A stretch of 57,369 nt of DNA from Lentimicrobium sp. (GTDB taxonomy: Bacteria; Bacteroidota; Bacteroidia; Bacteroidales; Lentimicrobiaceae): assembly GCA_023957275.1 (NCBI GenBank), contig JAMLHF010000025.1, positions 1-57,369 on the forward strand, written 5' to 3'. This document shows, piece after piece, positions 15,865 to 37,515 of the stretch. Position 1 is the stretch's first letter; each line of letters starts with the position of its first letter. The notes under the pieces were generated by a model. That model was not told the origin of the DNA. It saw only the letters and a list, made by a program, of their open reading frames with translations, and made no database searches. The position numbers and the translations under genes were made by a program.

Positions 15865-15886
15865 ACTTTCCGAATAAGTCTTTATT

Positions 15887-20625: not shown

Positions 20626-20627
20626 CT

Positions 20628-22079: not shown

Positions 22080-22101
22080 GTGGCCGGCGCATTGTGCCGG
22101 A

Positions 22102-22109
22102 CAAAAGTA
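22102..22109 (-). promoter_or_regulatory. -7 promoter box for the MBOAT unit
   Basis: Reads TACTTTTG on the minus strand, 22 bases before the MBOAT start. Between box and ATG is a small hairpin (CCGGC/GCCGG, 22084-22100). Confidence 0.4.
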
Positions 22110-22280
22110 GGGAAAATGCAGTTTTTCGGCGAATTTATTCCAAAATCGTCCGGGCGGTTGGCAGGGGGTTCCCGGATAAACACTTACGGGTCAATCTGAT
22201 TTTTGTGTTACTTTGCGCCTGAAAACGGAGATACCCGGCTGCCGGGATCTGAATCCGGCGCTTTATATAACCTGTGCATT

Positions 22281-24296
22281 ATGAGTACGCCCAAGAAGAG
22301 GAGCAAACCCCTGACTTCCAAACCGGAAAAAAAGGCAAACACCCGATCGTGGGGCAATCTGCCTTATCATCTTCTGATCACGGCATTTGCGTTTATTCTA
22401 TACGGAAACACCATCAATAACCGGTATTCTCTCGACGATGTCTATGTTACCGGAAAGAATCCCCTCACCCAGCAGGGTATCAGGGCCATCCCCGCCATCT
22501 TCTCATCGTATTACATCAACCTGAATGCCGAGGAGGGCGGACAGCACAACTTCGGTTACCGCCCGCTGGCCAAAGCCACTTTTGCCCTTGAGTGGCAGTT
22601 TTTCGGAGAGAATCCCCACGTGAGCCATTTCTTAAATGTCCTGCTTTACGCCCTTACCGGAATCCTGCTGTTTATGCTGTTGCGGCGGCTGCTCGGAAAA
22701 TATCATGTGTTGTTACCCTTGCTTACCGTGATGTTGTTTCTGGCGCACCCCCTGCATACCGAAGTGGTGGCGAGCCTGAAGAACAGGGAAGAGCTGCTCA
22801 GTTTTCTGGGAGCCCTGCTTTCGCTGAAATACTTTCTGAGATTTTACGATTCAGGTAAAAAGATTAACATATTGTGGGGTACCTTGTTTTTTGGGCTGGG
22901 CTACCTGTCCAAAGCCAATGTGATGACCTTTCTGGCGGTGATTCCGCTGGTGTTTTATTTCTTTACAGATGTCAGACCCCGTCAGATATTGCTGATGCTG
23001 ATTCCGTTGCTGCTGGTGCTGGCCGTTGCGGTTGTGGTGCCAAGAATTTTTCTGGGTGAGACCACCCGTTCCCTGCAGTTTATCGAGAACCCTTTGCTCA
23101 TGGGCGCCTCCCTTGCCGAGCGTCTGGGGACCTCCATGATGGTGATGCTGTTTTACCTTCAGAAACTGGTTTTCCCCCATCCGCTGGGGTTCTACTATGG
23201 ATTTAATATGATTCCCGTTACCGGTCTGGCAAACCCGATGGTATGGCTTTCGCTGCTGATCCATTTAGGGTTGCTTGGATTTGCATTGTGGAAGATCAGG
23301 GAAAAACACCTGCTATCATTTGCCATACTTTTCTACCTGGTGAATATTTCGCTGTTTTCCAACCTGATTGCTCCTCCCACGGGAATAGTGGCGGAGCGCT
23401 TCCTCTATATTGCTTCCCTGGGGTTTGTACTTGCGCTGGTTTACGGGATATTCAGGATTTTCGGCCCGGTTACTGCCGGAGAGCAATTGCCGGCCAGCGT
23501 GAAGAATTACGCGGTACTCATTGCGGTGATTCTTGTCATCCCGGCTACCGCCAAAACCATCGACCGCAACCGCGACTGGAAGGATGAGCTGACCCTTTAT
23601 GCCGCGGATATGCCCTATCTGGAGCAATCGGCTAAAGCTAATTTTATCTATGCTACCAATCTGCGTTCTTCGGTAGTGGAAAGGCTGAAATCGGGCGTGC
23701 CGCGGCAGCAGATTGTTTCTGATGCCCGGATTTGCATAAAGCATTTTAAACAGGCAACCAGGGTGTATCCTGCCTATGCCGATGCCTGGAATAACCTGGG
23801 TGAGTCATTTCTGCTGCTGCTCAACGAGTCCGATTCGGCGATACAGTACTTTGAAAAAGCCGTGGAGCATAATCCGCAGTTTACGGCTGCGTTTTATAAC
23901 CTGGGTTACACCTATCAGGTGACCGGTCAGCCCGAAAAGGCCATTCCGAATTACGAAAGGGCGCTGGAACTCCAGCCCTTCGAGATCAGGGCCATGTCGA
24001 ACCTTGCCCAACTCTATCAGAAGACCGGACAAACCGAAAAGGCCATTGCCCTGAATGAAGATATTATTACGATAGAGCCCGGGCTGGACCTGCCCTACAT
24101 CAATCTGGGCACTTATGCCATGCGCGGCGGGGATGCTGCCAAAGCCCTGGAATATTTTGAGCAGGCCATCCGGATTAACCCGAATAATTTTGAACTCAAT
24201 ATGCGGCTCCGGAATTACTACCAGAAGGTTGGCGATTCAGCGAAAGCCGATTATTATCTTGACCTGGCACGCCGATCAGGACGGCCTCAACAATAA
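22281..24296 (+). CDS. TMTC-like membrane glycosyltransferase with C-terminal TPRs
   Basis: Polytopic protein of about 671 residues. The N-terminal part has about ten or more helices and looks like the GT-C fold of TMTC-type O-mannosyltransferase relatives: a first loop with NRYSLDDVYVTGKNP holding the acidic pair, then GYRPLAKATFALEWQFFG and HFLNVLLYALTGILLF. The C-terminal 190 residues have about four TPR units (AYADAWNNLGESFLLL, AAFYNLGYTYQVTGQPEKAI, and others). TMTC relatives move sugars from lipid carriers to proteins; bacterial members are mostly uncharacterised. The ATG at 22281 is used because the preceding residues are not conserved-looking. An acyl-AMP ligase gene follows after 9 bases, so the two may be co-transcribed. 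Confidence 0.75.
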   Translation: MSTPKKRSKPLTSKPEKKANTRSWGNLPYHLLITAFAFILYGNTINNRYSLDDVYVTGKNPLTQQGIRAIPAIFSSYYINLNAEEGGQHNFGYRPLAKATFALEWQFFGENPHVSHFLNVLLYALTGILLFMLLRRLLGKYHVLLPLLTVMLFLAHPLHTEVVASLKNREELLSFLGALLSLKYFLRFYDSGKKINILWGTLFFGLGYLSKANVMTFLAVIPLVFYFFTDVRPRQILLMLIPLLLVLAVAVVVPRIFLGETTRSLQFIENPLLMGASLAERLGTSMMVMLFYLQKLVFPHPLGFYYGFNMIPVTGLANPMVWLSLLIHLGLLGFALWKIREKHLLSFAILFYLVNISLFSNLIAPPTGIVAERFLYIASLGFVLALVYGIFRIFGPVTAGEQLPASVKNYAVLIAVILVIPATAKTIDRNRDWKDELTLYAADMPYLEQSAKANFIYATNLRSSVVERLKSGVPRQQIVSDARICIKHFKQATRVYPAYADAWNNLGESFLLLLNESDSAIQYFEKAVEHNPQFTAAFYNLGYTYQVTGQPEKAIPNYERALELQPFEIRAMSNLAQLYQKTGQTEKAIALNEDIITIEPGLDLPYINLGTYAMRGGDAAKALEYFEQAIRINPNNFELNMRLRNYYQKVGDSAKADYYLDLARRSGRPQQ

Positions 24297-24305
24297 GTAT
24301 CACCG

Positions 24306-26009
24306 ATGCCCGAAAACTCTGCCTACTATCAACCTGAGCTTACCCTGCCTGATCTGCTGAAGCGGGCTGCTGCAGACCCTGCGCCTCTGTATACCGGTTA
24401 TATGGACGAGAAAGGGGAAATTGACAGACAAACCTATGCTGAACTTTTAAATGAGGCCACCTCGCTTGCCTGTGGATTACAGGCGCTGGGGATGCTGTCC
24501 GGCGACAAAGCCATCATTGCAACCCGGCAGAACCGGGAAACCATCACCCTGCTCTGGGCCTGTTTCCTGGCGGGGGTAGTACCTACGGTGCTCCAGCCGC
24601 CCCTTACCTTTTCGGGATACAACCCCGCCGTGGAGAAACTGAAAAATGTTTACCGGCAGTTCGGAGAACCTTATATATTTTTCAGTGAGGAAATGGCTGA
24701 GACTGACGGGCTTCCTGATGAAAAAGTTAAACATGTCAATGATCTTGATTGTAGCGGAAACTTTGAAGCACCGTATCTGCAACCCGGCGACCTGGCATTT
24801 GTGCAGTTTTCGTCGGGCAGCACGGGCGATCCCAAGGGCATTATGCTTACCCATCACAACCTGATGGTAAATATGGATGCCATCCGGATCGGCCTTGATC
24901 TGCATTTCCCTGACCGCACCGGCAACTGGATGCCTTTGTTCCACGATATGGGGCTGATCGGGTACCATCTGGTACCACTTTATTGCTCCATTTATCAGTT
25001 TCACACCGAAACGATAGATTTTATCAAGAATCCCGGTTTGTGGCTTGATCTGATGAGTGGGTCCCGGATTAACGTTACCGGCTGTCCGAACTTCGGGCTG
25101 GCGTTGGTACTTCGCTATCTGAGCAGGAAAAAGACCCTGCCGGACTGGAATTTTTCTTCGATGAAGGCCATGCTCAACGGGGCAGAGCCAATCTCGGTGC
25201 AGATTATGAATGATTTTGTGGAGCGCCTGCAGCCCTTCGGATTCAGAACCGAAGCCATGATGCCGGTATACGGGATGGCCGAAGCCACGCTGGCCATTTC
25301 ATTTACGCCCCTGATGCGGCCTTCGGTGATCACTGCCTTTGATGCGACCAGACTCGATCTGGAAGGCATAGCCGTGGAAGTGCCGGTGGATGATCCGGGT
25401 GCCAGGCTGCTGTCGGGCGTGGGCATTGCCCTGAACGACACGTGGATCCGTATCACCGGTCATGACGACAGTCCGGTAGAGGACAGAATGACGGGCCACA
25501 TTCAGTTGAAAGGACCCGGTATCACCGGAGGGTATTACCGGAAACCCGAAGCCACCCGGGCTGCCTTCTGCGGTGAATGGCTGCGTACCGGCGATATCGG
25601 TTTCTTTTATAAAGGCAACCTTTATGTGAGCGGCAGGCACAAGGATATTATTTTTAAAAACGGACGTAACTATTTTGCCAACGATCTGGAAACCATGGCC
25701 TGCACCGTCGACGAAATCAGTTATGGCAAGGTTTGTTTCGGTGGTACCACCAGCCGCGAAACGGGACATGATAAAGTGATCGCTTTTCTGGCCGGTTCGC
25801 CCGGTGAAAAGGCCATGGAGACCTTCAGGCAGCTGCGCAACCTGCTGCGGGCCAACCTGGGCATTACCGTTGATGAGCTGGTGATGGTTAAATCCAATGA
25901 AATCCCGAAAACGTCAAGCGGGAAACTGCAACGGTATAAGCTGATGCAACGCTACCTTGCCGGTGAGTTTGCCGAAACAACCCTGCCGGCTGCTATTCTG
26001 AACATATGA
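24306..26009 (+). CDS. Fatty acyl-AMP ligase-type enzyme, stand-alone
   Basis: ANL-superfamily adenylating enzyme of 567 residues, closest in pattern to fatty acyl-AMP ligases (FAAL). It activates a carboxylic acid with ATP and hands it to a carrier protein. A3-type loop: FSSGSTGDPKGIMLTHHNLM; also PVYGMAEATLAISF, GEWLRTGDIGF and, at the C-terminus, IPKTSSGKLQRYKL with the catalytic lysine. FAAL-type features include NWMPLFHDMGLIGYHLVPL after the A3 loop. It has no fused carrier domain; the free ACP at 28682 is the nearest candidate. The stop overlaps the sulfotransferase start by 4 bases. Acid substrate unknown. Confidence 0.88.
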   Translation: MPENSAYYQPELTLPDLLKRAAADPAPLYTGYMDEKGEIDRQTYAELLNEATSLACGLQALGMLSGDKAIIATRQNRETITLLWACFLAGVVPTVLQPPLTFSGYNPAVEKLKNVYRQFGEPYIFFSEEMAETDGLPDEKVKHVNDLDCSGNFEAPYLQPGDLAFVQFSSGSTGDPKGIMLTHHNLMVNMDAIRIGLDLHFPDRTGNWMPLFHDMGLIGYHLVPLYCSIYQFHTETIDFIKNPGLWLDLMSGSRINVTGCPNFGLALVLRYLSRKKTLPDWNFSSMKAMLNGAEPISVQIMNDFVERLQPFGFRTEAMMPVYGMAEATLAISFTPLMRPSVITAFDATRLDLEGIAVEVPVDDPGARLLSGVGIALNDTWIRITGHDDSPVEDRMTGHIQLKGPGITGGYYRKPEATRAAFCGEWLRTGDIGFFYKGNLYVSGRHKDIIFKNGRNYFANDLETMACTVDEISYGKVCFGGTTSRETGHDKVIAFLAGSPGEKAMETFRQLRNLLRANLGITVDELVMVKSNEIPKTSSGKLQRYKLMQRYLAGEFAETTLPAAILNI

Positions 26010-27055
26010 CAACAAATATTATAGACGTCCCTTTCTTTTTTATCATCGGCCGCCCGCGTTCGGGCACCACATTGCTTCGCTCCATTTTTGATGCGCACCC
26101 CAACGTGGTGATTCCATTCGAAAGCCCGGTAATTCTGAATCTTTACCGCAAGTACAAAAAAGTACGCGCCTGGGACGAGGCCGCCGTTGATGAACTGTAT
26201 GCCGACCTTAGCAAACAGCCCTATTTCGAACGCTGGAGGGTGGAGAAAGAGGGGTTGAAGGAGCGGATACTCGGTTATCAGGGAGAAATCAGTTTTCACC
26301 TGCTGATAAGGCTGGTTTACCAGGGGTACCAGTCGGTGTTCGACAAGACTGAAACCCTGTGGTTCGGCGATAAGAATCCGGTTTATTCCTTTTATGCCGA
26401 CCGTCTTTTCAGGATGTTTCCCGACGCGAAGTTTATCCACATTACCAGGGATTACCGCGATAACCTGGTTTCGTTGCGAAAAGTAACCTTCGAGGCGCCC
26501 ATCCCGGCCCTGATCGCTTATCGCTGGGTCAGGGCCAACAAGCTGATGGACAAAATTATCCGCAAGGCGCCCGATCAGGTACTCCGCCTGCGTTATGAGG
26601 AACTGGCCGCTGCCCCTGAGGAGAAAACCCGCGAAATCTGCAATTTTCTGAATCTGGAGTTCTATCCGGAGCAGCTTGAATACCGGAAAAAACTGGAAGG
26701 GGCCAAAGAGCGTGCCGCCGAATACCAGATCCGGAACCATGAGAGCCTGATGAAACCGGTAAACACGGGCCGCATTGCCATCTGGAAGGACGCGCTGACT
26801 CCGGAAGAAGTAAAGGTGATGGATATGGTTGCCGGTCGCAATGCAGACGAGCACGGTTATGAAAGGGAGTTCAGGGGTAGTTATCCCTTGCTGATGATCA
26901 GATCGTTGCCGGTGTTGCTCTACGCCCGTATAATGAACACGGCCATGCGGCTGGGCAGCCTCCTGCCTTACGGACCGGCTTCATGGGTTTTTATGAAGTT
27001 GCAGGTGTTTTACAGGATATACCGCAAAGCTGCCACCCGAAAATCCGGCGACTAA
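26006..27055 (+). CDS. PAPS-dependent sulfotransferase-family protein
   Basis: Protein of 349 residues with the two PAPS-binding signatures of sulfotransferases: the 5'-phosphosulfate loop FIIGRPRSGTTLLRS (about residues 11-25) and the 3'-phosphate site HITRDYRDNLVSLRK (about 146-160). The C-terminus has a hydrophobic segment (about 295-330) that may tie it to the membrane. The family sulfates carbohydrates, lipids or proteins. Translational coupling (ATGA) to the acyl-AMP ligase suggests a substrate carrying the same acyl chain, such as a sulfated glycolipid, but this is inference. Its stop interlocks with that of the opposing radical SAM gene. Confidence 0.85.
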   Translation: MTTNIIDVPFFFIIGRPRSGTTLLRSIFDAHPNVVIPFESPVILNLYRKYKKVRAWDEAAVDELYADLSKQPYFERWRVEKEGLKERILGYQGEISFHLLIRLVYQGYQSVFDKTETLWFGDKNPVYSFYADRLFRMFPDAKFIHITRDYRDNLVSLRKVTFEAPIPALIAYRWVRANKLMDKIIRKAPDQVLRLRYEELAAAPEEKTREICNFLNLEFYPEQLEYRKKLEGAKERAAEYQIRNHESLMKPVNTGRIAIWKDALTPEEVKVMDMVAGRNADEHGYEREFRGSYPLLMIRSLPVLLYARIMNTAMRLGSLLPYGPASWVFMKLQVFYRIYRKAATRKSGD

Positions 27056-27065
27056 TGCCTGCCGG
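27045..27065. terminator. Small palindrome over interlocked stop codons
   Basis: Arms CCGGC (27045-27049) and GCCGG (27061-27065) flank an 11-base loop that includes both stops, TAA on plus (27053-27055) and TAG on minus (27054-27052). No T-run. Same layout as at 3692-3711. Confidence 0.3.
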
Positions 27066-28539
27066 TAAACCGCCTTACCATATATTTCCACCAGATGGCA
27101 TAAATAATGGTCAACACAGGATTGGTCAGGCGGATATACCATGAACGTTTTCTGCCTATCCATTCGAGGTTTCGGTTAAGGTTGCCCGGCTGATCCCCGA
27201 GCAGGTCCTCCAGCACAATGCGCCCGTAATTGTGATTGGTTCCGTAAACCCAGTAGGCCGCTTTAAAGTTTCCGGTCCGCCACAATGTCTTAAACATCAT
27301 TTTGCGGATATTATCCTTTTTGTAAAGCTTCATCCAGATGTCGCGCATGGTTTGCTGTAACGCTTCGCGGGTCATATGGTTGGTACCCATCGTGGCTTCC
27401 TTGAAGTGGTAATGCTTCCAGTCTTCGGGATAATTACAGAGATCGATCTTTTTCTGGTCGCGCAGCCGGAAAAACAGGTCGGTGCCCGGCAACGGGGTCA
27501 TGATGCTGGTTTGCATGGCATCAATGCCGCTGTTCAGGCAGAATTCCATCCGGTTGTATAAATCCTGCGTGTTGTCGCTTTCCATACCGAAGATCATAGC
27601 TCCCAGGACGGCTATACCGTGTTTGTGGATTTTTCTGAAGGCTTCCTGGTAGTAATCCACTCCCTTCTTCAGGTTCAGCCGTTTGCGGGCATCTTTAAGG
27701 GCTTCGGGTTTTTCGGCCTCAATGCCAAGCAAAATCAGGGTGCAGCCGCTTTTGGCCGCCCAATGCAGCACTTCGTCGTTATCGGCAAAATTCATGGCCG
27801 CCTGTCCGAACCACAGCTTATTGATTTTCCGCTCAACCATTCCCCTGAAAAGCCGGATGGCCCGCTCTTCAGCCCCTTTGTTTGTATTGATCAGATGATC
27901 GTCAACAATAAATAACAGCGGCCGGTCTGTCTTTTCCAGTTCATCAAGCACTTCTTCAACCGGGCGTTCACGGTATTTCGAACCACACATTTTGGTGACC
28001 GAGCAGAAGTCGCAGCCCATGGGGCAGCCACGTGAAATCTGTATCAGATCATACACATAGGGGTATTTTTTGTAAATATCCCTGCGGACAAGCGGTATTT
28101 TATCAACCGGGGTAATTCCACCCTGGTACAATTTCTGAACGCTGCCCTCCTCAAAATCCCTGATCACCTGGGGCCAGACCAGTTCGGCTTCGCCCGAAAC
28201 CGTGGTATCAACATAGTTGACGACCTCTTCGGGCATCATACTGGCATGGATGCCGCCCATCACGGTATGCACCCCCTGACTTCTGAACATGGCCGCTAGT
28301 TCATAGGCGCGAAAAGCATTGGCCGTAAAGGCGGTGAAACCTACCATATCCACAGGCCGGAAGGTGCACAGTTCAAAACTCTCATCAATCAGTTCCACCT
28401 CCCAGTGGTCAGGTGTAAGCGCGGCAATAATACCGAGCCCCAACGGCATGTAACTGGTGCTGGGGTCATTTGAAAAGCCCAGCCGGTGCTGGTTTATCGG
28501 ATTTATCAGAAGCAGTTTTCTCTTCCTTTTTTCGGTCAT
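27052..28539 (-). CDS. B12-binding-domain radical SAM enzyme
   Basis: Protein of 495 residues. An N-terminal cobalamin-binding-type Rossmann domain (about 1-140: YMPLGLGIIAALTP, MGGIHASMMPEEV) lacks the DxHxxG cobalamin ligand motif, as in many members. The radical SAM core carries the cluster cysteines Cys172, Cys176 and Cys179 in RGCPMGCDFCSVTKM. A C-terminal extension ends with a hydrophobic stretch (LTNPVLTIIYAIWWKYMV, about 470-490) that may hold it at the membrane. Relatives act on hopanoids, tetraether lipids and other hydrophobic substrates, mostly methylation or C-C bond formation. Placed between acyl-ligase and ACP genes, so an acyl chain or lipid is a reasonable but untested substrate. 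Confidence 0.88.
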   Translation of the reverse strand: MTEKRKRKLLLINPINQHRLGFSNDPSTSYMPLGLGIIAALTPDHWEVELIDESFELCTFRPVDMVGFTAFTANAFRAYELAAMFRSQGVHTVMGGIHASMMPEEVVNYVDTTVSGEAELVWPQVIRDFEEGSVQKLYQGGITPVDKIPLVRRDIYKKYPYVYDLIQISRGCPMGCDFCSVTKMCGSKYRERPVEEVLDELEKTDRPLLFIVDDHLINTNKGAEERAIRLFRGMVERKINKLWFGQAAMNFADNDEVLHWAAKSGCTLILLGIEAEKPEALKDARKRLNLKKGVDYYQEAFRKIHKHGIAVLGAMIFGMESDNTQDLYNRMEFCLNSGIDAMQTSIMTPLPGTDLFFRLRDQKKIDLCNYPEDWKHYHFKEATMGTNHMTREALQQTMRDIWMKLYKKDNIRKMMFKTLWRTGNFKAAYWVYGTNHNYGRIVLEDLLGDQPGNLNRNLEWIGRKRSWYIRLTNPVLTIIYAIWWKYMVRRFTGRH

Positions 28540-28650
28540 TTCAATCTTCGGATTCTAATTCCGGTGGCAATATTACTAAATACTTTTATCCTGATGCGTG
28601 AAATTTAGTTTTACATTTCCGGCTTTGCGGTGTTGGTATTTGAAACTTCC

Positions 28651-28658
28651 TAACTTTG
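28651..28658 (+). promoter_or_regulatory. -7 promoter box for the ACP gene
   Basis: TAACTTTG matches TAnnTTTG, 24 bases before the ACP start. A TTG at 28633-28635 gives a 15-base spacer, slightly short. Confidence 0.4.
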
Positions 28659-28681
28659 CCGTGTGAATTAATACCGTTTTT

Positions 28682-28915
28682 ATGAACATTGACGACTTTA
28701 TTACACGCATTGAGGAAGAATTTGATGATCTGACGCCCGGAACCCTGAAGCCGGAAAGTGTTTTCAGGGAAGTGTTTGAATGGAATTCCATCAATGCACT
28801 GATTCTTATCGCCATGGTTAAGACTGAATACGACGTGGCCATCAATGCGGAGGATATTGCGAACTCGAAGACTGTCGCAGATATTTACAGGATTATTGAA
28901 GAAAGGGTCAGCTAA
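28682..28915 (+). CDS. Acyl carrier protein, non-housekeeping type
   Basis: Acidic protein of 77 residues with the four-helix ACP pattern. The phosphopantetheine serine is Ser36, but the usual DSL box reads NSI (FEWNSINALIL). FEWNS-type ACPs are typical of specialised clusters rather than fatty acid synthase. It is transcribed alone between the radical SAM gene and the FAAL-ACP gene, both on the opposite strand, and is the natural partner of the stand-alone acyl-AMP ligase or KAS III nearby. Confidence 0.88.
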   Translation: MNIDDFITRIEEEFDDLTPGTLKPESVFREVFEWNSINALILIAMVKTEYDVAINAEDIANSKTVADIYRIIEERVS

Positions 28916-29007
28916 CCGGCCGGTAATAAACCACCCCTTAAAAATGTTCATTCACCCCGGCAAAACCGGATTTTATACCATCGGTTGCGGACTGGTCGTA
29001 TAAATTT

Positions 29008-31026
29008 TTACTGCCTGCTCCCTGCTTCCCTGACAAGCAGATTGATGGAAATATCTTCGAACATCCGGTACGGCGGCAGTTCTATGCCATATCTGTTTTT
29101 GATTTCATCCGAAAGTTCCGAGGCTTTGAGCGAATCAATTCCGTAAGCAATCAGTGCGTCCGAAGTGCCCACGGGTTTCCCCTGATTCAGTTTTACAGAA
29201 ACCCAGTTGCAGATGAAGTCAGGCAGACTGAGCTCATCATTAATATGTTCTTCGGAAAAGTCTGCTTCGGGAAATATTTTTTCCGCAATAATCTCCAGTT
29301 CACCTTTGAGCAGCATTTCACGGGCTGCTTTGTGCATCATCTTTCCGCTCGAAGTTTTGGGAATTGATCCGGTGCGGATCAGGCTGATACGCGCCGGCTG
29401 AATTTCATGTTCGGCCGATACCGATGCAACGATGTGTTCAAGAATGCCTGCTGTATCAGGCTTTCTCAGAAATGTCCTTTCCAGTTCGGCAATGATGCAC
29501 AGGCTTTCTTTGTAATTTACTTCGAGCGGAACAGCCGCTACGCAGGTTTTGCGGATGGAAGGATGGCTGTTTTCAACCGTTTTCTCAATGTCCTGGGGAT
29601 AAAAGTTCTTCCCGTTAATAATGATCAAATTTTTAAGCCGTCCGGTAATATACAACTCCCCCTGATGTAAAAAGCCTAGGTCTCCTGTTCGAAGCCAACG
29701 GGGGTCGTTCATTCCGGCCGGTGAAACGGTAAAGGTTTCACTTGTAAGTTTCTCTTTTCCCCAGTATCCCTTTGTTTTGGTACTGCCGCTCACCCATATT
29801 TCACCCACCCGATTTTCCTCCAGTTTCAGGGAATTGTCAGGGTTCACAATAATTATTTCAGTATCCATGTTCGGGATGCCGTTGCTGACAATGTATTGTA
29901 CATCATCTTCAGGGCCGGCCATTTCGACAAGATTCTTTTTAAGGGAATCGGTTTTAACAGGCAGGCTGAAAGGCCCCTTTTCTTTCCGGGCTCCGGTAAG
30001 GATAAGGGTTGATTCCGCCATCCCATAGGCAGGGAAAAAGGCACCGGCTTTAAAACCGCAAACCGAAAATTTCTGAATAAAGCGGTCGAGGGTCTCTTTC
30101 CTCACCTGTTCGGCGCCGGTCAGAAAGGTACGGAGTGATGAAAGGTTCAGCCCTTCAACAAGCCCCTCGTCGATTTTATCATGACAAAGGTTCAGCGAAA
30201 AATCAGGTCCGCAGGTGGTTGAGGCTTTGTAATGATGGATGGCCCTCAGTAAATACCAGGGTTTGGAAATAAAGGTAAAAGGAGACATCAGCACTGTATG
30301 CGACCCTGAAAACGGCGTTTCCAGAACGCCAAGCAGCAGTCCGAGGTCATGAAACTGAGGAACCCAGTGCACATTCGTATCCGCTTGACGGATATCCATG
30401 TAAAGCTGCAGTGATTTCAGATTCACCATCATGTTCCGGTGAGTGACCATCACGCCTTTAGGGGTGCCGGTTGATCCGGAAGTATATTGCAAATATGCAA
30501 GATCTTGAAAATCAGTTTCTTTAAATACCAGCGTCCCCGGCGGTTCAACCAGTTCATCCGTTGCGACCCAGGGCAGGTTGCCGAGTAAGGGGTCTGAAGA
30601 AAAATTTCTCTCGAACGATCGTGTTATAACGCCGGTGGCAAGGATGGCAGCTGCATCGCAGTCGGCGGCAATGGCATTTATCCGGTCAATAGAACGGTTT
30701 TTTCTTGGCGGATATACCGGAACGGCAATTGCGCCGGCATACAGACAGCCAAAAAATGCAGCAATGAAATCGATACCGGCAGGATAAAACATCAGAACAT
30801 TCTTCCCGGAAAGATCCATAGCGGATATTTTACCTGCGATGGTCGTCGCAGCTTTGTCTAATCCGCCGTAGGTAATCACCGCGGTCTCATTTTCTCCGTC
30901 GCCCAGAAAGGTGAATACCCTGCGTTCCGGATGCAGGGCAGCCCTTGTTTGCAACACAGTTACAATGGTAGCTTTGTCTGGCAGATGTCCAAGGTCGGCG
31001 GGAACCGGAGCAGTCGTAATCATCAA
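29008..31026 (-). CDS. Fatty acyl-AMP ligase fused to an acyl carrier domain
   Basis: Two-domain protein of 672 residues. Residues 1 to about 585 form a FAAL-type adenylating enzyme: QYTSGSTGTPKGVMVTHRN (A3 loop), NVHWVPQFHDLGLL, FFPAYGMAESTLIL, PRWLRTGDLGFL and IPKTSSGKMMHKAA with the catalytic lysine. Residues about 600-672 form an ACP domain with the phosphopantetheine serine at Ser632 (YGIDSLKASEL). The fused layout means the acyl group is loaded onto its own carrier. Transcribed away from the KAS III gene, with their promoters 30 bases apart. Chain length and identity unknown. Confidence 0.92.
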   Translation of the reverse strand: MMITTAPVPADLGHLPDKATIVTVLQTRAALHPERRVFTFLGDGENETAVITYGGLDKAATTIAGKISAMDLSGKNVLMFYPAGIDFIAAFFGCLYAGAIAVPVYPPRKNRSIDRINAIAADCDAAAILATGVITRSFERNFSSDPLLGNLPWVATDELVEPPGTLVFKETDFQDLAYLQYTSGSTGTPKGVMVTHRNMMVNLKSLQLYMDIRQADTNVHWVPQFHDLGLLLGVLETPFSGSHTVLMSPFTFISKPWYLLRAIHHYKASTTCGPDFSLNLCHDKIDEGLVEGLNLSSLRTFLTGAEQVRKETLDRFIQKFSVCGFKAGAFFPAYGMAESTLILTGARKEKGPFSLPVKTDSLKKNLVEMAGPEDDVQYIVSNGIPNMDTEIIIVNPDNSLKLEENRVGEIWVSGSTKTKGYWGKEKLTSETFTVSPAGMNDPRWLRTGDLGFLHQGELYITGRLKNLIIINGKNFYPQDIEKTVENSHPSIRKTCVAAVPLEVNYKESLCIIAELERTFLRKPDTAGILEHIVASVSAEHEIQPARISLIRTGSIPKTSSGKMMHKAAREMLLKGELEIIAEKIFPEADFSEEHINDELSLPDFICNWVSVKLNQGKPVGTSDALIAYGIDSLKASELSDEIKNRYGIELPPYRMFEDISINLLVREAGSRQ

Positions 31027-31071
31027 TTAATCAATATTTTGTTGTTCATTCGGAGAATGAAAGATGTCATG

Positions 31072-31079
31072 CAAAGTTA
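31072..31079 (-). promoter_or_regulatory. -7 promoter box for the FAAL-ACP gene
   Basis: Reads TAACTTTG on the minus strand, 45 bases before the start codon. It lies back to back with the KAS III promoter, so the two genes could share control. Confidence 0.45.
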
Positions 31080-31109
31080 GAAAATTGGGGGATCAACTGA
31101 AAATTAAAG

Positions 31110-31117
31110 TACATTTG
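31110..31117 (+). promoter_or_regulatory. -7 promoter box for the KAS III-SDR unit
   Basis: TACATTTG matches TAnnTTTG, 57 bases before the start codon. A TTG at 31085-31087 is 22 bases upstream, a little far. Confidence 0.4.
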
Positions 31118-31173
31118 CGATGATAGAGTCCAGATGAGAACCGGATAGTTCTGATTAACTATAATCCTTTTTT

Positions 31174-32253
31174 ATGGCGATTTTCAGTATTTCTGATATT
31201 CGGATGGCAGGCCTGTCGGCCTGTGTTCCCCCAAAAACGCTTTCAAACCATGATTATAAATGGATTAAAGTGAAGGAACGGGAACAGGTAATCAAAACCA
31301 TTGGCGTGGAAAACCGCCATGTGGCCGAACCCGGACAAACCACTTCCGACCTTTGCTTTCAGGCGGCTGAGCAACTGCTTGATGAACTGAAGTGGGACAG
31401 GAATGAGATCAACATCCTTGTTTTTGTCTCGCAGAGCCGTGATTACATCATTCCGTCAACCTCCGCCATTCTTCAGAACCGGTTGCAGCTGCCCAGGACC
31501 TGTATGGCGCTTGATATTAATCTGGGTTGTTCCGGATACGTATACGGCCTTTCGGCGATCGGCAGCATGATGAAGGCGGCCGGTCTTCAAAAAGGATTGT
31601 TGCTGGTAGGCGATTTGTCGAACGTTACCTCCAGCTATCGTGACAAAAGCACCTATCCGCTGTTTGGCGACGCCGGCACTGCCACCGCCCTGGAGCTTGA
31701 TCCGGGCGCGGCACCCATGCAGTTCAATCTGCAAACCGACGGCAGCGGCTACGAAGCCATCATTATTTACGACGGGGGCGTGAGAAACCTGGCAAGTAAA
31801 AAGTCTTTCGCAACCAGAAAATACGGCGAGGGCATTTACCGCAACCGGCTGCAGATTGCGCTGAACGGCATTGAAGTGTTTAACTTCTCGTTGCGCGAGG
31901 TGGTGCCAAACATAAAAACCACCCTCAAGCACTTTGGCCGCGAGTTGCCCGAATTTGACTACCTGCTTTTTCATCAGGCCAACCGCCTGATCAACGAAAC
32001 CATCCGCAAAATGCTGAAGGTGGAGCCAGAGCGTGTTCCATATTCCCTGCGCGATTTTGGCAATACCAGCTGCGCTTCCATCCCGCTGACGATGGTTACG
32101 CAAATCAGGGAGGCCCTGGAACAAAAACCTCAGAAGCTGCTGCTTTCAGCTTTCGGAATCGGGCTGTCGTGGGGTAGTGTGCTGATGGAAACTTCAGGGC
32201 TGGTGGTGCCTCCGCTCACGGAACTGGAACCGGCATCACAGCCCGGAGTATAA
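31174..32253 (+). CDS. 3-oxoacyl-ACP synthase III-like enzyme (FabH family)
   Basis: Thiolase-fold enzyme of 359 residues that condenses an acyl starter with a malonyl-type extender. The full KAS III triad is visible: Cys119 (INLGCSGYVYG), His267 (LFHQANRLIN) and Asn297 (FGNTSCASIPL). The middle region (FATRKYGEGIY and the following insert) differs from housekeeping FabH and fits the specialised KAS III family found in surface-sugar and secondary clusters. An SDR gene 64 bases downstream could reduce its 3-oxo product to a 3-hydroxyacyl chain. Housekeeping fatty acid genes are absent here, which supports a special role. Confidence 0.92.
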   Translation: MAIFSISDIRMAGLSACVPPKTLSNHDYKWIKVKEREQVIKTIGVENRHVAEPGQTTSDLCFQAAEQLLDELKWDRNEINILVFVSQSRDYIIPSTSAILQNRLQLPRTCMALDINLGCSGYVYGLSAIGSMMKAAGLQKGLLLVGDLSNVTSSYRDKSTYPLFGDAGTATALELDPGAAPMQFNLQTDGSGYEAIIIYDGGVRNLASKKSFATRKYGEGIYRNRLQIALNGIEVFNFSLREVVPNIKTTLKHFGRELPEFDYLLFHQANRLINETIRKMLKVEPERVPYSLRDFGNTSCASIPLTMVTQIREALEQKPQKLLLSAFGIGLSWGSVLMETSGLVVPPLTELEPASQPGV

Positions 32254-32317
32254 GCTGAGCCGCGCTTCGGGCAGAATCGTTGAAGCAATTTGTAAACTAA
32301 ACGATGAATTTCCAGAT

Positions 32318-33052
32318 ATGAATGCATTTGATCTAAGCGGTAAAACAATTCTGGTTACCGGCGCTTCGTCAGGGCTCGGGCGGCAAACCGCCATTACGGC
32401 CAACGGGTATGGCGCCGGGGTGGTGATTACCGGCCGGGACGCAGCCCGGCTGAATGAAACCTTTCAGTTACTCGAAGGGGATGGGCATCAGCAAATCACG
32501 GCCGATCTCACCCTGCAACCGGATATTGACCGGTTGGTGGCTGCCCTGCCCGTGCTGAACGGGGTGGTATACAGCACCGGCATTTCCGACCTGGCTCCGG
32601 CGCGCTTCATCACCGCCGAAACCATTGCTAAAACCTTTCGCGTGAGTTTTGATGCAGCCGTATTGCTCACGGCGGGGTTGCTCGGCAAAAAGAAGCTGGC
32701 TAAAAACCAGTGCTCGCTGGTGTATATTTCTTCCATTTCGACAAGATATCCTTTTGTGGGTGGGGCCATGTACATCAGTGCAAAAGCCGCCCTGGAGGCT
32801 TATGCCCGCGTACTCGCGCTGGAACTGGCACCCAAAGGCATCAGGGTCAATTGTGTGGCTCCGGCATTTGTGCGCACCCCCATGCTCGACGATACCGCCG
32901 CCAACTATTCGCAGGAAGCGGTAAATATGATCGAAGCCCGTCAGATTCTGGGCCTGGGCGATCCGGAAGATGTGGCCAATTCAATTGTTTATTATCTGTC
33001 CGATGCTTCGAAGTGGGTGAGCGCCACCAGCCTGGTGCTGGGCGGCGGATAA
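32318..33052 (+). CDS. SDR-family oxidoreductase (3-oxoacyl-ACP reductase-like)
   Basis: Classical short-chain dehydrogenase of 244 residues. Cofactor loop TGASSGLGRQT at about residues 15-25; active-site Ser in SSIS, Tyr152 and Lys156 in MYISAKAALEA. An Arg in the next strand (TGRDAARL) suggests NADPH. The FabG-like length and its place after KAS III make reduction of a 3-oxoacyl-ACP the best guess. The C-terminus VLGGG is standard for FabG-like SDRs. Confidence 0.88.
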   Translation: MNAFDLSGKTILVTGASSGLGRQTAITANGYGAGVVITGRDAARLNETFQLLEGDGHQQITADLTLQPDIDRLVAALPVLNGVVYSTGISDLAPARFITAETIAKTFRVSFDAAVLLTAGLLGKKKLAKNQCSLVYISSISTRYPFVGGAMYISAKAALEAYARVLALELAPKGIRVNCVAPAFVRTPMLDDTAANYSQEAVNMIEARQILGLGDPEDVANSIVYYLSDASKWVSATSLVLGGG

Positions 33053-33122
33053 TTCACAATCACTGCCTGTGCTGAAAGCATTGATGCATCAGAAATACAA
33101 CGAAGCGACGTTCAACCCGGTA

Positions 33123-33220
33123 AATCCGCAATCCGAAATCGCAAATCTCTCGTTATCCGGCTATCGCCGTCTCCCGAGACAAGCGAAATCAGAAATCGAA
33201 AATCCGAAATCCAAAATTCC
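33123..33220 (+). repeat. Dispersed ~100-bp repeat, copy 1, ending 2 bases before the GT2 start
   Basis: An A/T-rich tract of GAAATC-type units around a G/C-rich block. Positions 33143-33204 (62 bases) are an exact reverse complement of 44687-44748, and similarity extends with a few mismatches and one gap to the full span given. Both copies are oriented the same way relative to the gene that follows, and both end with AAATTCC-like sequence next to an ATG. The G/C block contains a short palindrome around CTCCCGAG. Function unknown. Confidence 0.9.
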
Positions 33221-33222
33221 CT

Positions 33223-34140
33223 ATGCCAGATTATTCAATTATAGTCCCGGTTTATAACAGCAAAGACAGCCTCGGGGAGCTGTTTTCACGGATAGATCAG
33301 ACCCTGGAGCATCTGGGTCAGACTTTCCGGTTAATTTTTGTGGACGATGGCAGTACCGATCAAAGCTGGGAAGTCATCAGCGATATACGTCAGCAGCATC
33401 CCGGCAAGGTGACCGCCATCCGGCTGGCCCGCAACTATGGGCAGCACAATGCCACGCTCTGCGGTATTGCACAGGCCGAAGGTGACCACATCATTACCAT
33501 TGATGATGATCTGCAGAACCCGCCAGAGGAAATCCCCCGGCTGATTGAAGCCATGATGAAAGAAGACGCTGACCTGGTTTATGGTATCTATGATAAGAAG
33601 CAGCACTCCGTCATGCGCAATATGGGCAGCGCCATTATCCGCGGAGGCTCCAAACGGCTGTTCAGCACCAAGGGGCAGGGCTCTTCTTTCAGGCTGATGA
33701 AGTCGTCGCTGGCTAAAAGCCTGCTGAACCACCAGATCAACTTTGTATACATCGATGAGTTGTTTAACTGGTACACCTCTCATATCTCTTTTGCATTGGT
33801 TGAGCATCACAAGCCGCCCTACAGGAAGTCGAATTACTCGCCCCGCTCGCTTTTCAGAATGATGAGCAACCTGGTCATCTATTATACCGCTGTTCCGCTG
33901 AAACTGATGGTTTACGGCGGACTGATATCGTCCATTATAAGTTTTATTGTGGGTGTTGCGTTTATTTACCGTAAAGTAGTTTCTGACGTTCCCCTGGGAT
34001 TCACCGCCCTGATCGTTGCCATATTGTTCTCCACCAGCATCATCCTGCTTTCGCTGGGCGTAATCGGCGAATACCTCAGCCGCATTTACGCGGTGCAGAA
34101 CCGTAAACCGCCTTTTGCCATCAGGGAGATACTTAAATGA
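33223..34140 (+). CDS. GT2 glycosyltransferase (dolichol-phosphate/undecaprenyl-phosphate sugar transferase type)
   Basis: Protein of 305 residues: a GT-A domain (1 to about 220) plus two C-terminal membrane helices (about 229-253 and 263-288). The domain has FVDDGSTDQSW and TIDDDLQNPPEEI, the acidic motifs of the DPM1/GtrB/ArnC group that load a sugar onto a polyprenyl phosphate. Tails of this shape are found in GtrB-type enzymes. Such a lipid-linked sugar could feed the TMTC-like GT-C enzyme at 22281, which also needs a lipid-linked donor; that pairing is inference. The start codon is only 2 bases after a dispersed repeat. Confidence 0.9.
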   Translation: MPDYSIIVPVYNSKDSLGELFSRIDQTLEHLGQTFRLIFVDDGSTDQSWEVISDIRQQHPGKVTAIRLARNYGQHNATLCGIAQAEGDHIITIDDDLQNPPEEIPRLIEAMMKEDADLVYGIYDKKQHSVMRNMGSAIIRGGSKRLFSTKGQGSSFRLMKSSLAKSLLNHQINFVYIDELFNWYTSHISFALVEHHKPPYRKSNYSPRSLFRMMSNLVIYYTAVPLKLMVYGGLISSIISFIVGVAFIYRKVVSDVPLGFTALIVAILFSTSIILLSLGVIGEYLSRIYAVQNRKPPFAIREILK

Positions 34141-34210
34141 TGGTGAGAGGTGAGCGGCAGTGCCTTTTAGTCAGTTTGCCTCAAAAAAATGAAAGAAGAA
34201 GACCCGGAAG

Positions 34211-34888
34211 ATGAAACTCTTTAAATACGGTATCACCCTTGAACGCCTTAAAGAAACAGATATTGAACTGGTAAGGCAGTGGCGGAATTCCGACCCTGTG
34301 CGGCTGAATATGGCATACCGTGAGATTATATCTCCCGAACAGCAGTTGCAATGGTTCAGGTCTGTCGATAACCTGGAGAACAACTACCTGCTGATCTATT
34401 ACAAAGGGGAGAAAATCGGGCTGCTCAATGATAAAAATGTGGACTGGGAGGCCCGGACTTCCGAGTCGGGGTTGTTTCTGGGGCGCACGGAGTTTTATTC
34501 CACCTTTGTGCCTTACCTGGTGTCCGTGGCCGGAATAGAGACGACGTTTTACTTTTTGAACTGGAACAAACAGTACGCGCATATCCTCCGCGGCAACACC
34601 CGGGCTATCAGTTACAATGCACAGTTAGGCTACAGACTTTGCCCGGATCAGGAAGAAGCGGAAAACCAGCAATATGAACTGACCCGTGAGGGATTTGAGC
34701 TGAAGGCCGGCAGGATCAGGAAAGCGGTGCGCCAACTTGCCGGGGATGACCTGAAAACTACCTTGCTGCTGGAGCCGGAAGATTATAAATCGGGGCTTGC
34801 CCTGCGTTACGAGTCGCTGCTGGCGGCCTGTCCTTTGTCCCTCCGGCGCGATGAAGATGCTGCCGGTGTCTGGATACGCGAAGTCTGA
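34211..34888 (+). CDS. GNAT-family acyltransferase, PseH-like
   Basis: Protein of 225 residues. The first about 160 residues match the GNAT fold as in PseH and related amino-sugar N-acyltransferases: VRQWRNSDPVRLNM near the start, ISPEQQLQWF, then NYLLIYYKGEKIGLLNDK, and RGNTRAISYNAQLGYRL at the CoA side. The last about 65 residues are an extension without a family I recognise. It probably moves an acetyl or longer acyl group to an amino sugar. With the KAS III, SDR and carrier genes nearby it could be the enzyme that places their product, though acetyl-CoA alone is also possible. Confidence 0.65.
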   Translation: MKLFKYGITLERLKETDIELVRQWRNSDPVRLNMAYREIISPEQQLQWFRSVDNLENNYLLIYYKGEKIGLLNDKNVDWEARTSESGLFLGRTEFYSTFVPYLVSVAGIETTFYFLNWNKQYAHILRGNTRAISYNAQLGYRLCPDQEEAENQQYELTREGFELKAGRIRKAVRQLAGDDLKTTLLLEPEDYKSGLALRYESLLAACPLSLRRDEDAAGVWIREV

Positions 34889-34905
34889 AGCCTGCCTTAT
34901 GCTTC
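34887..34905. terminator. Small hairpin at the meeting point of two converging genes
   Basis: Arms GAAGC (34887-34891) and GCTTC (34901-34905) flank a 9-base loop. It spans the GNAT stop and the stop of the NagB-like gene. Weak on its own, but the layout repeats that at 3692 and 27045. Confidence 0.25.
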
Positions 34906-37224
34906 TGTTCCTTCCGATAGTTTTTTCAGCGATCTGGCGATGCCGGTAAACTCATTCACATTCATTTCTTTAATATACAGCAAGCCGTGGGTAGCCCTGA
35001 TCAGGGCATTGTTGTTTTCGTAGAAGAAGTTTTTACCCAGCAGCAACTGTATCTGTTTCAGTTGTTTCACCCATGTTTTGCGTGTCAGCTCGCTGAAAGG
35101 CCCGTCGTATTCAAAACTGGGAAATGAGGCATTCACCTGGCTGAGGTAGCTTTCGGCAAATGATTTCTCCAGTACGGCCAGAGCGTTGAGCGAAACGGGA
35201 ACCAGCAGATCGGCATCGGCGGGATGAAAACGGTACCATACGTTGCGGTAGCCGAGGATCCGCAATTGTGAAAGATCGGCTTCCCTGCTCCATTCCTTTA
35301 CCGCCCCTGCAATGGCCTGCAGCACTTTGTAATGGGTGTCGGGGCCGCTGCCTTCCGGATCAAGGGCCAGGCTGATGATGGTCGGCTTGATTTCCCTCAG
35401 TTGCTGAAGGATGGGGAGCATATCCCGGTTTTTCTCAGGGTTCTCGGTAAAAATCTCACCCTTATAAAAGCCCAGCCGCAGGTGGTGCACATTCTTCACC
35501 GGCACACCGTAATAGGCCCATACCAGCTCCTCTTCAAATTCGCGCAGCATCCCCTTAAGCTTCTGGATGTCGGGTGGATTTTTACTGCCGTCATAGCTTT
35601 CCTTCAGCACATTCATTACTTGATTCAGTACTTTCCGGAGTTCAAAACGGTCTTTTATTTCCCAGTTAACCACGGCCGATCTTACAAGGCGGTGGCACAG
35701 TCCCCTGCGTTTTTCATATTCGTTCTGCCGGGCTACATTGTCCAGGAAGTGGTAAACATCCTTATCCCACTTGTATGCGTAGCCTTTCTTAAAGAAATCA
35801 GGATAGTGAATCATCTGTACTTCTCCTTTATCCAGCATCTTCAGCGTGTCTTCCAGCGCGCTGATAAGGAAGTGGTTGGTGACTGCCGTAAAACCGGAGG
35901 TCATCACCGCAAAATGAACGTCGTTGGAGGCCGAACGCAACTGCCGGTTGGTGTAAGGCATAATGCCCAGCATAATATCGTCGTGGTGAGGGCCGGTATG
36001 ATAAATTATCTGATTTTCATCATGTTGCATGCCTTTCTGCAACTTGTTACTTATGGATCTGATCACTTCCGGTACGGTTTGTTCGCTCAGGTCGGGGATC
36101 AGAGAGCACCAGGGGTCGGCCCTCAGGTCGTCAACTGTCAGGTGGTGGCCGTATTTTTCGAGTCTTGCGCAGAGATCAATCACCGCCCTTTCGGTTTTAC
36201 GCCGGGTCCACTCACCGGTTTTGTAGTAGCGCTCCACTGAATCGCTGAGCCGGCCGGCAGCGCCTTCGGTAAGGTAGAAGCGGGCATTGGGCAGTCGTTG
36301 AAGCACTGTGGCCGGATAAACAGTATTCATGTCGTTTTCGAGTGAGACCTTTACGATTTCAGCCTTTGCTTCTCCGGCGGCAAAAATGATAGCCACGGCA
36401 TCCGGATTGAAGGTGATGGTCCCCAGTCCGATGGTTATCACCAGGCGGTTTCGGGAGATTTCAATGCCGCCCAGGTCGCCGGCGGCTACAGCCTGGGTTT
36501 CAAAATTGGTCTGCGTCAGCCGGGTGGTTGACCAGAGGTCGGAACCCCGGGTGTTGAAGGCAATATGTCCGTCAGGGCCAATGCCGCCAAGAAAGAATCC
36601 GATGCCTCCCTTTTCACGGATCTTTGCTTCATACTCCGAACACCAGTTGTCGATGGCGAAAATGGATGCCTTGCGGATTTCTTCTTCTGCCGTGCGGGCC
36701 TCACGGTAACGCAGGCTTAAATCGATGACCGAGCCGGGGAAAACCTCACTGTAAGTTCTTCCTTCAGGCAGCGGAATTTCATCTGAATTGATCAGCAGCG
36801 CCCTGCCCGGATCAAGCCCGAAGCCGCGGAGGTAATATTCCGTCACATAGTTGTGAAAAGAATTGTGCTGCACCGGAGAAATAGGGTAGAACTCATCGAT
36901 CTGCACAAACTGCAGTCCCCTGAGATCCGGTTTCCTGAGCGAACCCAGTCCGTATCTGCCCAGCAACTGGCGGATTTCTTCCCTGTTCCAGTTTTCGAGG
37001 ATATTCCGGGTATATTTGATGAAATATTCCGGCGTTTTTCCGGTAGGCAGGCTGATGACCCCTTCAGGATTCGCAGAAACCCACTCCAGAAAACGCAGGG
37101 AGGTGAGCAGACCCAGGGAAGGGAAATCTCCTGTAATAATGTAGGGGATACGTGAAGACATTTTTTCAACTCCTGAAAGGGCTGCAAAAGCCTTTTCTGC
37201 CGGAGAAAATTCTTTGTGATTCAT
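34897..37224 (-). CDS. NagB-like domain fused to a PIG-L deacetylase-like domain
   Basis: Large protein of about 775 residues. The N-terminal part (about 20-290) is a glucosamine-6-phosphate deaminase/6-phosphogluconolactonase fold: FVQIDEFYP holds the early Asp and GGIGPDGHIAFNTRGS the catalytic Asp-x-His. In E. coli NagB the next residue after FN is the catalytic Glu148; here it is Thr. The second part (about 400-700) resembles PIG-L/LmbE deacetylases, with metal-site motif PHHDDIMLG in place of the common HPDDE. Fusions of this type occur in Bacteroidota and are usually labelled glucosamine-6-phosphate deaminase. The altered motifs leave the reaction open. ATG at 37224 is chosen; one at 37323 is also possible. 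It is divergent from the GH29 gene. Confidence 0.8.
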   Translation of the reverse strand: MNHKEFSPAEKAFAALSGVEKMSSRIPYIITGDFPSLGLLTSLRFLEWVSANPEGVISLPTGKTPEYFIKYTRNILENWNREEIRQLLGRYGLGSLRKPDLRGLQFVQIDEFYPISPVQHNSFHNYVTEYYLRGFGLDPGRALLINSDEIPLPEGRTYSEVFPGSVIDLSLRYREARTAEEEIRKASIFAIDNWCSEYEAKIREKGGIGFFLGGIGPDGHIAFNTRGSDLWSTTRLTQTNFETQAVAAGDLGGIEISRNRLVITIGLGTITFNPDAVAIIFAAGEAKAEIVKVSLENDMNTVYPATVLQRLPNARFYLTEGAAGRLSDSVERYYKTGEWTRRKTERAVIDLCARLEKYGHHLTVDDLRADPWCSLIPDLSEQTVPEVIRSISNKLQKGMQHDENQIIYHTGPHHDDIMLGIMPYTNRQLRSASNDVHFAVMTSGFTAVTNHFLISALEDTLKMLDKGEVQMIHYPDFFKKGYAYKWDKDVYHFLDNVARQNEYEKRRGLCHRLVRSAVVNWEIKDRFELRKVLNQVMNVLKESYDGSKNPPDIQKLKGMLREFEEELVWAYYGVPVKNVHHLRLGFYKGEIFTENPEKNRDMLPILQQLREIKPTIISLALDPEGSGPDTHYKVLQAIAGAVKEWSREADLSQLRILGYRNVWYRFHPADADLLVPVSLNALAVLEKSFAESYLSQVNASFPSFEYDGPFSELTRKTWVKQLKQIQLLLGKNFFYENNNALIRATHGLLYIKEMNVNEFTGIARSLKKLSEGTEA

Positions 37225-37442: not shown

Positions 37443-37515
37443 CGCCATGATTAAAGTCTGGGATCAACTTCTGAAAAAAAATTAAAAAGATAATGCTTTT
37501 GCATTTCCGCTTTTG

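Follow-up and report, generated by a model that had tools for sequence, protein, structure and literature searches.

A conserved Bacteroidales gene set that may make and export a customised N-acylated amino sugar, probably in sulfated form

We analysed a stretch of 57,369 nucleotides from Lentimicrobium sp. (contig JAMLHF010000025.1 of assembly GCA_023957275.1; hereafter, the window), in which ten genes at positions 22281-34888 encode enzymes of acyl-chain building, sulfate transfer and sugar transfer. We favor, at a probability of roughly 0.55, a model in which the products of this locus synthesise and export a lipid-linked 4-amino-4,6-dideoxyhexose that bears a customised acyl group on its nitrogen. 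The sugar is most likely an N-(3-hydroxyacyl)-4-amino-4,6-dideoxyhexose that is loaded on undecaprenyl phosphate and set on an envelope acceptor, and the product is probably sulfated. We observe the genes with their catalytic residues, conserved synteny, co-occurrence across the order and a mosaic ligase gene; from these we infer the reactions and the order of steps.

The source genome comprises 4.4 Mb in 145 contigs (95% complete; the window is contig C64). It was placed in an order-wide survey of 295 genomes and a phylum survey of 395 genomes, own genome counted. We compared 55 locus stretches from relatives, several shorter than 12 kb. These were chosen by the radical SAM gene (L029-L042, from 14 other members of the 19-genome genus, and L070-L089) or by the ketosynthase gene, mostly as new loci (L170-L189), and locus frequencies therefore describe a non-random sample.

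A conserved core with variable modules

The interval encodes, in order, a TMTC-like membrane glycosyltransferase, a stand-alone acyl-AMP ligase (FAAL1), a sulfotransferase, a radical S-adenosylmethionine (SAM) enzyme, a free acyl carrier protein (ACP), a second FAAL fused to a carrier domain (FAAL2), a ketoacyl-ACP synthase (KAS III), a short-chain dehydrogenase/reductase (SDR), a family 2 glycosyltransferase (GT2) and a GNAT acyltransferase. All ten genes that the initial annotation described are present and intact, the active-site residues it named are correct and conserved, and the radical SAM and FAAL2 genes lie on the minus strand with the other eight on the plus strand. Base composition is even across the locus (GC fraction 0.506, compared with 0.505 for the window), so recent import is not indicated.

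Within the genus, the radical SAM gene was found at at least 55% identity in 15 of 19 genomes; those without it are G005, G016 (78-79% complete), G010 and G012 (27-28% relatives only). The stretches from the other 14 carriers share a common order: TMTC-like gene, FAAL1, optionally the sulfotransferase, one or two radical SAM genes, ACP, optionally FAAL2, KAS III, SDR, GT2 and GNAT. In four of them (L029, L030, L031 and L035), a sulfotransferase gene separates FAAL1 from the radical SAM gene. In G014 and G018 (L203, L204), two sulfotransferases occupy other positions in the region, close to WecE, MBOAT/SGNH, an additional FAAL and Wzx. A DDE transposase gene sits between SDR and GT2 in G001 (L029:3884-5059, minus strand).

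Linkage extends beyond the genus. Forty-one of the 55 stretches hold both KAS III (at least 49% identity) and SDR, and in 39 of these, whichever of the ACP, KAS III, SDR, GT2 and GNAT genes are present run colinearly on one strand; the exceptions are L178 and L189. Across the 55 stretches we counted ACP in 46, KAS III in 45, SDR in 42, GT2 in 40, GNAT in 33 and the radical SAM gene in 38, a number inflated by the choice of loci. FAAL1-like and FAAL2-like genes were each present in 24, the sulfotransferase in 22, the TMTC-like gene in 21, Wzx in 14, WecE in 12, and MBOAT and SGNH in seven each.

Co-occurrence was assessed in the 295 genomes with cut-offs fixed after the tables had been viewed. 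The KAS III set holds 34 genomes at at least 53% identity (12 of the 46 at E 1e-70 were dropped), the radical SAM set 25 at at least 39% identity (of 77 at 1e-40) and the TMTC-like set 41 at 1e-119 (of 63 at 1e-80); all 36 genomes with a sulfotransferase match were kept. KAS III shared 31 genomes with the sulfotransferase (Fisher p 2.4e-33), 33 with the TMTC-like gene (p 5.5e-35) and 20 with the radical SAM gene (p 1.1e-17), p-values that ignore kinship. Counted by family, with 120 families assumed from labels, KAS III (19 families) and the sulfotransferase (21) had 17 in common. KAS III occurred without the sulfotransferase in G067, G218 and G236 and without the radical SAM gene in 14 genomes; the sulfotransferase occurred without KAS III in G069, G131, G157, G230 and G265.

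The core in relatives consists of ACP, KAS III, SDR, GT2 and GNAT, with the sulfotransferase and the TMTC-like protein, whereas the FAALs, the radical SAM enzyme and MBOAT/SGNH are variable modules. A FAAL was seen in 24 of 27 loci with the radical SAM gene compared with 6 of 18 without, a contrast inflated by locus choice and by many congeners. One of eight loci with a second KAS III had a FAAL, compared with 29 of 37 loci without one, as if the acyl chain came either from the second KAS III or from a FAAL. The earlier suggestion that the genes work together is largely upheld by colinearity and order-wide co-occurrence: related genomes keep the linkage rather than scattering the genes or placing them in unrelated neighbourhoods. 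The idea of ten genes as one fixed set is not: the modules vary from locus to locus, and some relatives have the sulfotransferase but no FAAL or radical SAM gene.

In the phylum survey, KAS III was found at 1e-100 in 7 of 395 genomes, our own and six outside the order. The six 20-kb stretches encode ACP, SDR and two copies of KAS III; four (L199-L202) also have a distant DegT transaminase, and L200 a distant GT2. In the same stretches, tblastn at 1e-4 gave no match to the GNAT, sulfotransferase, FAAL, radical SAM or TMTC-like proteins of the window. These are ordinary R-group sets. A scan of genome contigs for a named cultured carrier returned at least 80 loci and, among the matches listed, the cassette in L090 and L095 only. 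L090 comes from a metagenome-assembled genome labelled Alphaproteobacteria, a label or binning that is doubtful. It contains the complete cassette with three radical SAM genes, and its KsgA is 59% identical to that of the window.

Enzymes of acyl activation and elongation

Residue conservation was scored in those homologs from the retrieved loci that passed both an identity threshold and 60% coverage. KAS III (31174-32253, plus strand; PF08541/PF08545) retains its catalytic triad, with C119 in 46/46 homologs and H267 and N297 in 44/46 each (two rows gapped). The free ACP (28682-28915, plus; PF00550, E 8.8e-6) has a WNSI box with Ser36 conserved in 48/48, the preceding Asn in 38/48 and the following Ile in 39/48. 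The SDR (32318-33052, plus; PF13561), a likely 3-ketoacyl-ACP reductase, keeps Tyr152 in 42/42 and Lys156 in 41/42. The second KAS III match in L079 (L079:8916-9950) contains a stop codon.

FAAL1 (24306-26009, plus) and FAAL2 (29008-31026, minus) both combine an AMP-binding domain with the C-terminal domain of the class (PF00501 and PF23024) and have the catalytic A10 Lys, present in 24/24 FAAL1 homologs and in 19/20 for FAAL2 (one gapped). FAAL2 additionally ends in a carrier domain (PF00550) whose Ser632 is found in 19/20 (one gapped), and the genome encodes a phosphopantetheinyl transferase. The nearest solved structure to FAAL2 is a polyketide synthase domain, which we take to be of FAAL type. 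FAAL1 is nearest, among solved structures, to a non-FAAL protein with an amino acid adenylation domain and to McyG, which makes its substrate class less certain than that of FAAL2. One relative, L071, has three complete FAAL2-type genes in tandem together with one FAAL1, ACP and two radical SAM copies.

Genes for the sugar, its carrier and its transfer

The gene set exceeds the interval at 22281-34888, as WecE, the SGNH/MBOAT pair (19660-22079) and Wzx recur beside the cassette in relatives. A dTDP-4-amino-4,6-dideoxygalactose transaminase of the WecE type is encoded 3.9 kb upstream (17240-18370, minus). It scored above both curated cut-offs (PRK11706, 522.9 bits with a cut-off of 375; TIGR02379, 486.6 with 434.85) and its nearest solved structures are those of WecE, 4piw (E 4.1e-116) and 6blg; the genome also encodes RmlC. 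KAS III, SDR, ACP, ligase and GNAT fit 3-hydroxyacylation of an amino sugar, and this transaminase supplies the sugar enzyme missing from the initial annotation.

The nearest solved structures to the GT2 (33223-34140, plus) are ArnC (E 1.9e-42), and Asp94-96 is conserved in 38/38 homologs. Its score of 173.4 bits lies under the ArnC equivalog cut-off (PRK10714, 529). On this sequence evidence the protein likely works as ArnC does, transferring a sugar to polyprenyl phosphate, without being filed as ArnC. The GNAT (34211-34888, plus) resembles PseH (TIGR03585, 53.2 bits; cut-off 93.1) and is likely an N-acyltransferase acting on a 4-amino sugar. Its weak structural relatives are MJ1062 (E 7.5e-4), FdhC (0.011), which we believe uses 3-hydroxybutyryl-CoA, and PseH (0.018).

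Export and final transfer may involve a Wzx-type flippase (42520-43839, minus; PF01943, E 2.1e-16) and the TMTC-like protein (22281-24296, plus), a GT-C enzyme with tetratricopeptide repeats (PF13231 of the PMT_2 type and TPR families). In L041 (5395-7345) the TMTC-like gene is broken across two frames. Upstream lie an MBOAT O-acyltransferase (20628-22079, minus; PF03062, E 1.2e-27), which is DltB-like but under the equivalog cut-off, and its partner, a DUF1574 protein (19660-20751, minus) with a weak Pfam match (22.6 bits, cut-off 29.1) that we take to be SGNH-like. The partner accompanies MBOAT in 7 of 55 loci and also in L203-L206.

The sulfotransferase and the radical SAM enzyme

The sulfotransferase gene (26006-27055, plus; PF13469 of the Sulfotransfer_3 type, E 4.4e-35) overlaps FAAL1 by four bases (ATGA). 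Its product has the features of an enzyme dependent on 3'-phosphoadenosine 5'-phosphosulfate (PAPS), namely the 5'-phosphosulfate-binding loop and the Arg and Ser of the 3'-phosphate-binding site (R148 and S156, each in 32/32 homologs). PAPS supply is accounted for by an adenosine 5'-phosphosulfate (APS) kinase in the genome. APS kinase is present in 34 of the 36 sulfotransferase genomes compared with 117 of 259 without (151/295 overall). By sequence and by fold (model mean pLDDT 74.9, 6 sequences), the nearest structures are eukaryotic tyrosylprotein sulfotransferases, followed by the sulfotransferase domains of CurM and olefin synthase (OLS), the closest bacterial ones. The gene was present in four loci in which no FAAL was seen (L177, L180, L183 and L089).

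The radical SAM enzyme (27052-28539, minus; PF04055, PF02310) has a B12-binding domain and a CxxxCxxC motif that is conserved in 55/55 homologs, and belongs to no named equivalog: all 20 of its NCBIfam matches fall under their cut-offs. Its C-terminal tail was modelled as two low-confidence helices (model mean pLDDT 88.7, 24 sequences), and in most relatives at 39-51% identity the alignment ends near residue 435-460. The nearest solved relative is AprD4 (profile E 7.9e-19, fold E 3.2e-21), at 18% identity. AprD4 presumably lacks cobalamin, and cobalamin-dependent methylases (MgmA, OxsB, CysS, TsrM) follow closely by fold, in a list that also holds TokK; the structure entries of CysS and TokK have pantetheine-linked substrates in their titles. 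AprD4 itself, according to the accessible passages on it, is a radical SAM diol dehydratase that acts on an amino sugar (PMC5461906). The neighbours of relatives at 44-48% identity (L091-L094) were regulators and uncharacterised proteins and were set aside as uninformative about the reaction. A sulfamate route as in nucleocidin, suggested by a Streptomyces calvus contig among the radical SAM relatives, was dropped; the available passages on that route name no radical SAM gene.

FAAL2 as a diversity hotspot with a probably exchanged segment

The window and L029 are 98.0% identical over window positions 18569-30072 and 96.3% over 30695-33144. Between these blocks, FAAL2 codons 111-340 share only 61.6% identity in DNA and 63.5% in protein. 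The silent divergence is high: 50 of 76 four-fold sites differ in this segment, compared with 3 of 61 before it and 14 of 138 after it. These counts favour the exchange of this segment with a diverged allele over selection acting on point changes alone. We assume that codons 111-340 cover the acyl pocket. The mosaic may instead reflect a chimeric short-read assembly in the window; L029 lies on a 3.1-Mb contig (G001).

The FAAL2 of L030 is 48% identical to the window's, whereas the flanking genes are 88-98% identical. In 9 of 14 locus pairs that share a FAAL ligase, pairs that overlap and are not independent, the ligase was the least conserved shared gene; the other five are L030-L031, L173-L184, L070-L171, L170-L171 and L038-L040. 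The FAAL2 match in L070 and L170 is a lone carrier domain.

Surrounding genes

Adjoining the GNAT, a gene at 34897-37323 (minus) encodes an 808-residue protein that has no Pfam match at E 0.001 and is conserved in L029-L031; its start looks NagB-like to us. Between the cassette and Wzx/KsgA lie, at 37493-42395 (plus), a GH29 alpha-L-fucosidase with a PA14 domain and a GH92 protein with an F5/8 domain. The left neighbour of the locus is a suf operon (10840-16669, plus; SufD/B/C, SufS, SufE and a SufT-like gene), and SufB is near WecE and the sulfotransferase in L204 too. AMP-ligase, thioesterase and enoyl-CoA-type genes at 48-55 kb were considered as an extension of the pathway and rejected, being menaquinone genes (48328-55491, minus; MenE-, MenC-, MenA-, MenB-, MenD-, isochorismate synthase- and MenI-like).

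A proposed pathway and its alternatives

In our model, WecE would provide dTDP-4-amino-4,6-dideoxyhexose. Acids activated by FAAL1 and FAAL2 would be passed by these ligases to carriers, in the case of FAAL2 to its own carrier domain; KAS III would add two carbons and SDR would reduce the product to a 3-hydroxyacyl group on the free ACP. The GNAT would transfer this group to the 4-amine of the sugar, the ArnC-like GT2 would place the sugar on undecaprenyl phosphate, Wzx would flip the lipid-linked sugar, and the TMTC-like protein would hand it to an envelope acceptor, whether glycan, lipid or protein. The sulfotransferase would add sulfate to a hydroxyl of the sugar or of the acyl chain, the radical SAM enzyme may alter the chain or the sugar in lineages that have it, and the MBOAT/SGNH pair may carry out further O-acylation. 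The choice of FAAL would set the acyl group displayed at the surface, under diversifying exchange as for O-antigen R groups. The initial annotation had proposed a possible new pathway for an acylated, perhaps sulfated glycan or glycolipid; linkage and the fit with acylation stand, and the fixed ten-gene set does not.

The nearest described set appears to be the R-group genes wfpC-wfpG of Flavobacterium psychrophilum. As set out in the passages of that paper at hand, a similar gene set makes a 3,5-dihydroxyhexanoyl R group for a 4-amino sugar from ACP, 3-ketoacyl-ACP synthases, a reductase and an N-acyltransferase, and the R-group genes vary between strains (PMC6519341). Our locus likewise clusters ACP, ketosynthase, reductase and N-acyltransferase with a 4-amino-sugar transaminase. 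In the same passages, F. psychrophilum has a PglD-type acyltransferase, UDP-Qui2NAc4N and a Wzy polymer locus, whereas the locus described here has a GNAT, a WecE-type sugar, an ArnC-like GT2, a sulfotransferase, FAALs and a B12-type radical SAM enzyme. The nearest logic would seem to be that of Arn (ArnB, ArnA, ArnC, ArnD, ArnEF, ArnT), which, in the portion of the source available, also combines a DegT-family transaminase, an N-modified 4-amino sugar, an ArnC-family GT2, a flippase and a GT-C transferase (PMC10632790). By comparison with that portion, acyl transfer by the GNAT would replace formylation and deformylation, Wzx would replace ArnEF, the TMTC-like protein would replace ArnT, and a hexose would replace a pentose. 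No formyltransferase, ArnD deformylase or small ArnEF flippase was found among the 40 window open reading frames (ORFs) scanned with Pfam at E 0.001, the rest of the genome being unsearched. A literature search on FAAL, radical SAM and sulfotransferase genes, Bacteroidales and bacterial TMTC proteins, with most subscription papers outside it, returned no description of the gene set.

Several observations weigh against our model. For the GNAT, GT2, KAS III, SDR, FAAL1, FAAL2 and the radical SAM enzyme, every NCBIfam match listed falls short of its equivalog cut-off. WecE and Wzx adjoin the cassette in just 12 and 14 of the 55 stretches, many of which are too short to tell, and the GNAT in 33; the sulfotransferase, FAAL and radical SAM genes are each missing from some loci. 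In G150, G037 and G236 the TMTC-like gene lies beside ksgA on a different contig from KAS III, and with its gene apart from the cassette in several genomes the protein may serve something else. Finally, co-transcription of all the genes is excluded because they occupy both strands.

It is possible, though improbable, that the locus instead belongs to an O-antigen or capsule cluster of the Wzx/Wzy type. The acyl genes would then decorate a single sugar within the repeat unit with an R group, and the polymer would be the substrate of the GT2, the sulfotransferase and the remaining enzymes. The F. psychrophilum precedent, as far as its accessible text goes (PMC6519341), the Wzx gene in the window and in relatives, and the resemblance of FAAL2 exchange to serotype variation are consistent with this idea. 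Yet the 40 scanned ORFs contain no Wzy, O-antigen ligase or chain-building glycosyltransferase family (with no search for a polymerase beyond the window) and only one GT2 and one GT-C enzyme, and that GT2 is of the polyprenyl-monophosphate ArnC type rather than chain-building.

Quite unlikely, in our assessment, is a dissociated olefin-synthase-like line in which FAAL-carrier, KAS III, SDR, carrier and sulfotransferase yield a 3-sulfooxyacyl thioester destined for a lipid or an alkene and the sugar genes are mere neighbours. From what the source excerpts describe, cyanobacterial OLS and CurM would be nearest to this part of the locus: the order of functions (FAAL-ACP, ketosynthase, ketoreductase, ACP, sulfotransferase) matches, and the sulfotransferases are related (PMC3903477, PMC11837247). 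By the same excerpts, the locus differs in having separate proteins, KAS III for a modular ketosynthase, and sugar genes (PMC3903477, PMC11837247). The scanned ORFs include no acyltransferase (AT) or decarboxylating thioesterase (TE). Moreover, the eukaryotic tyrosylprotein sulfotransferases score better than CurM and OLS, the sulfotransferase occurs where FAALs were unseen, and the colinearity of SDR, GT2 and GNAT ties the acyl part to the sugar genes. The view that separate conserved genes with no single product share a favoured chromosomal site near ksgA/serS is very unlikely. In its favour, ksgA is found on the KAS III contig in 9 of 34 genomes (at a distance of 7-14 kb in eight and 30 kb in G246), modules come and go, and a TMTC-like gene can lie by ksgA with no cassette on that contig. 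Against it, KAS III, the sulfotransferase and the TMTC-like gene co-occur genome-wide even on different contigs.

Returning to the lipid-linked amino sugar, we offer a doubtful, more speculative version in which the FAAL-KAS III-SDR-sulfotransferase line would place a 3-sulfooxyacyl group (or a radical-SAM-modified 3-hydroxyacyl group) on the undecaprenyl-linked 4-amino sugar for display at the surface. The acid-choosing segment of FAAL2 would be swapped by recombination, and the lipid chain, rather than the sugar sequence, would be the variable epitope.

If our model is correct, about one genome in nine of this order of Bacteroidota-like bacteria from gut and environment encodes an undescribed route by which envelope sugars are acylated and probably sulfated, and in which the loading enzymes can be exchanged. 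The exchange of a FAAL adenylation core between close relatives amounts to a specificity-swap experiment performed by nature, and diversifying selection would then act on the acyl chain of a surface glycan.

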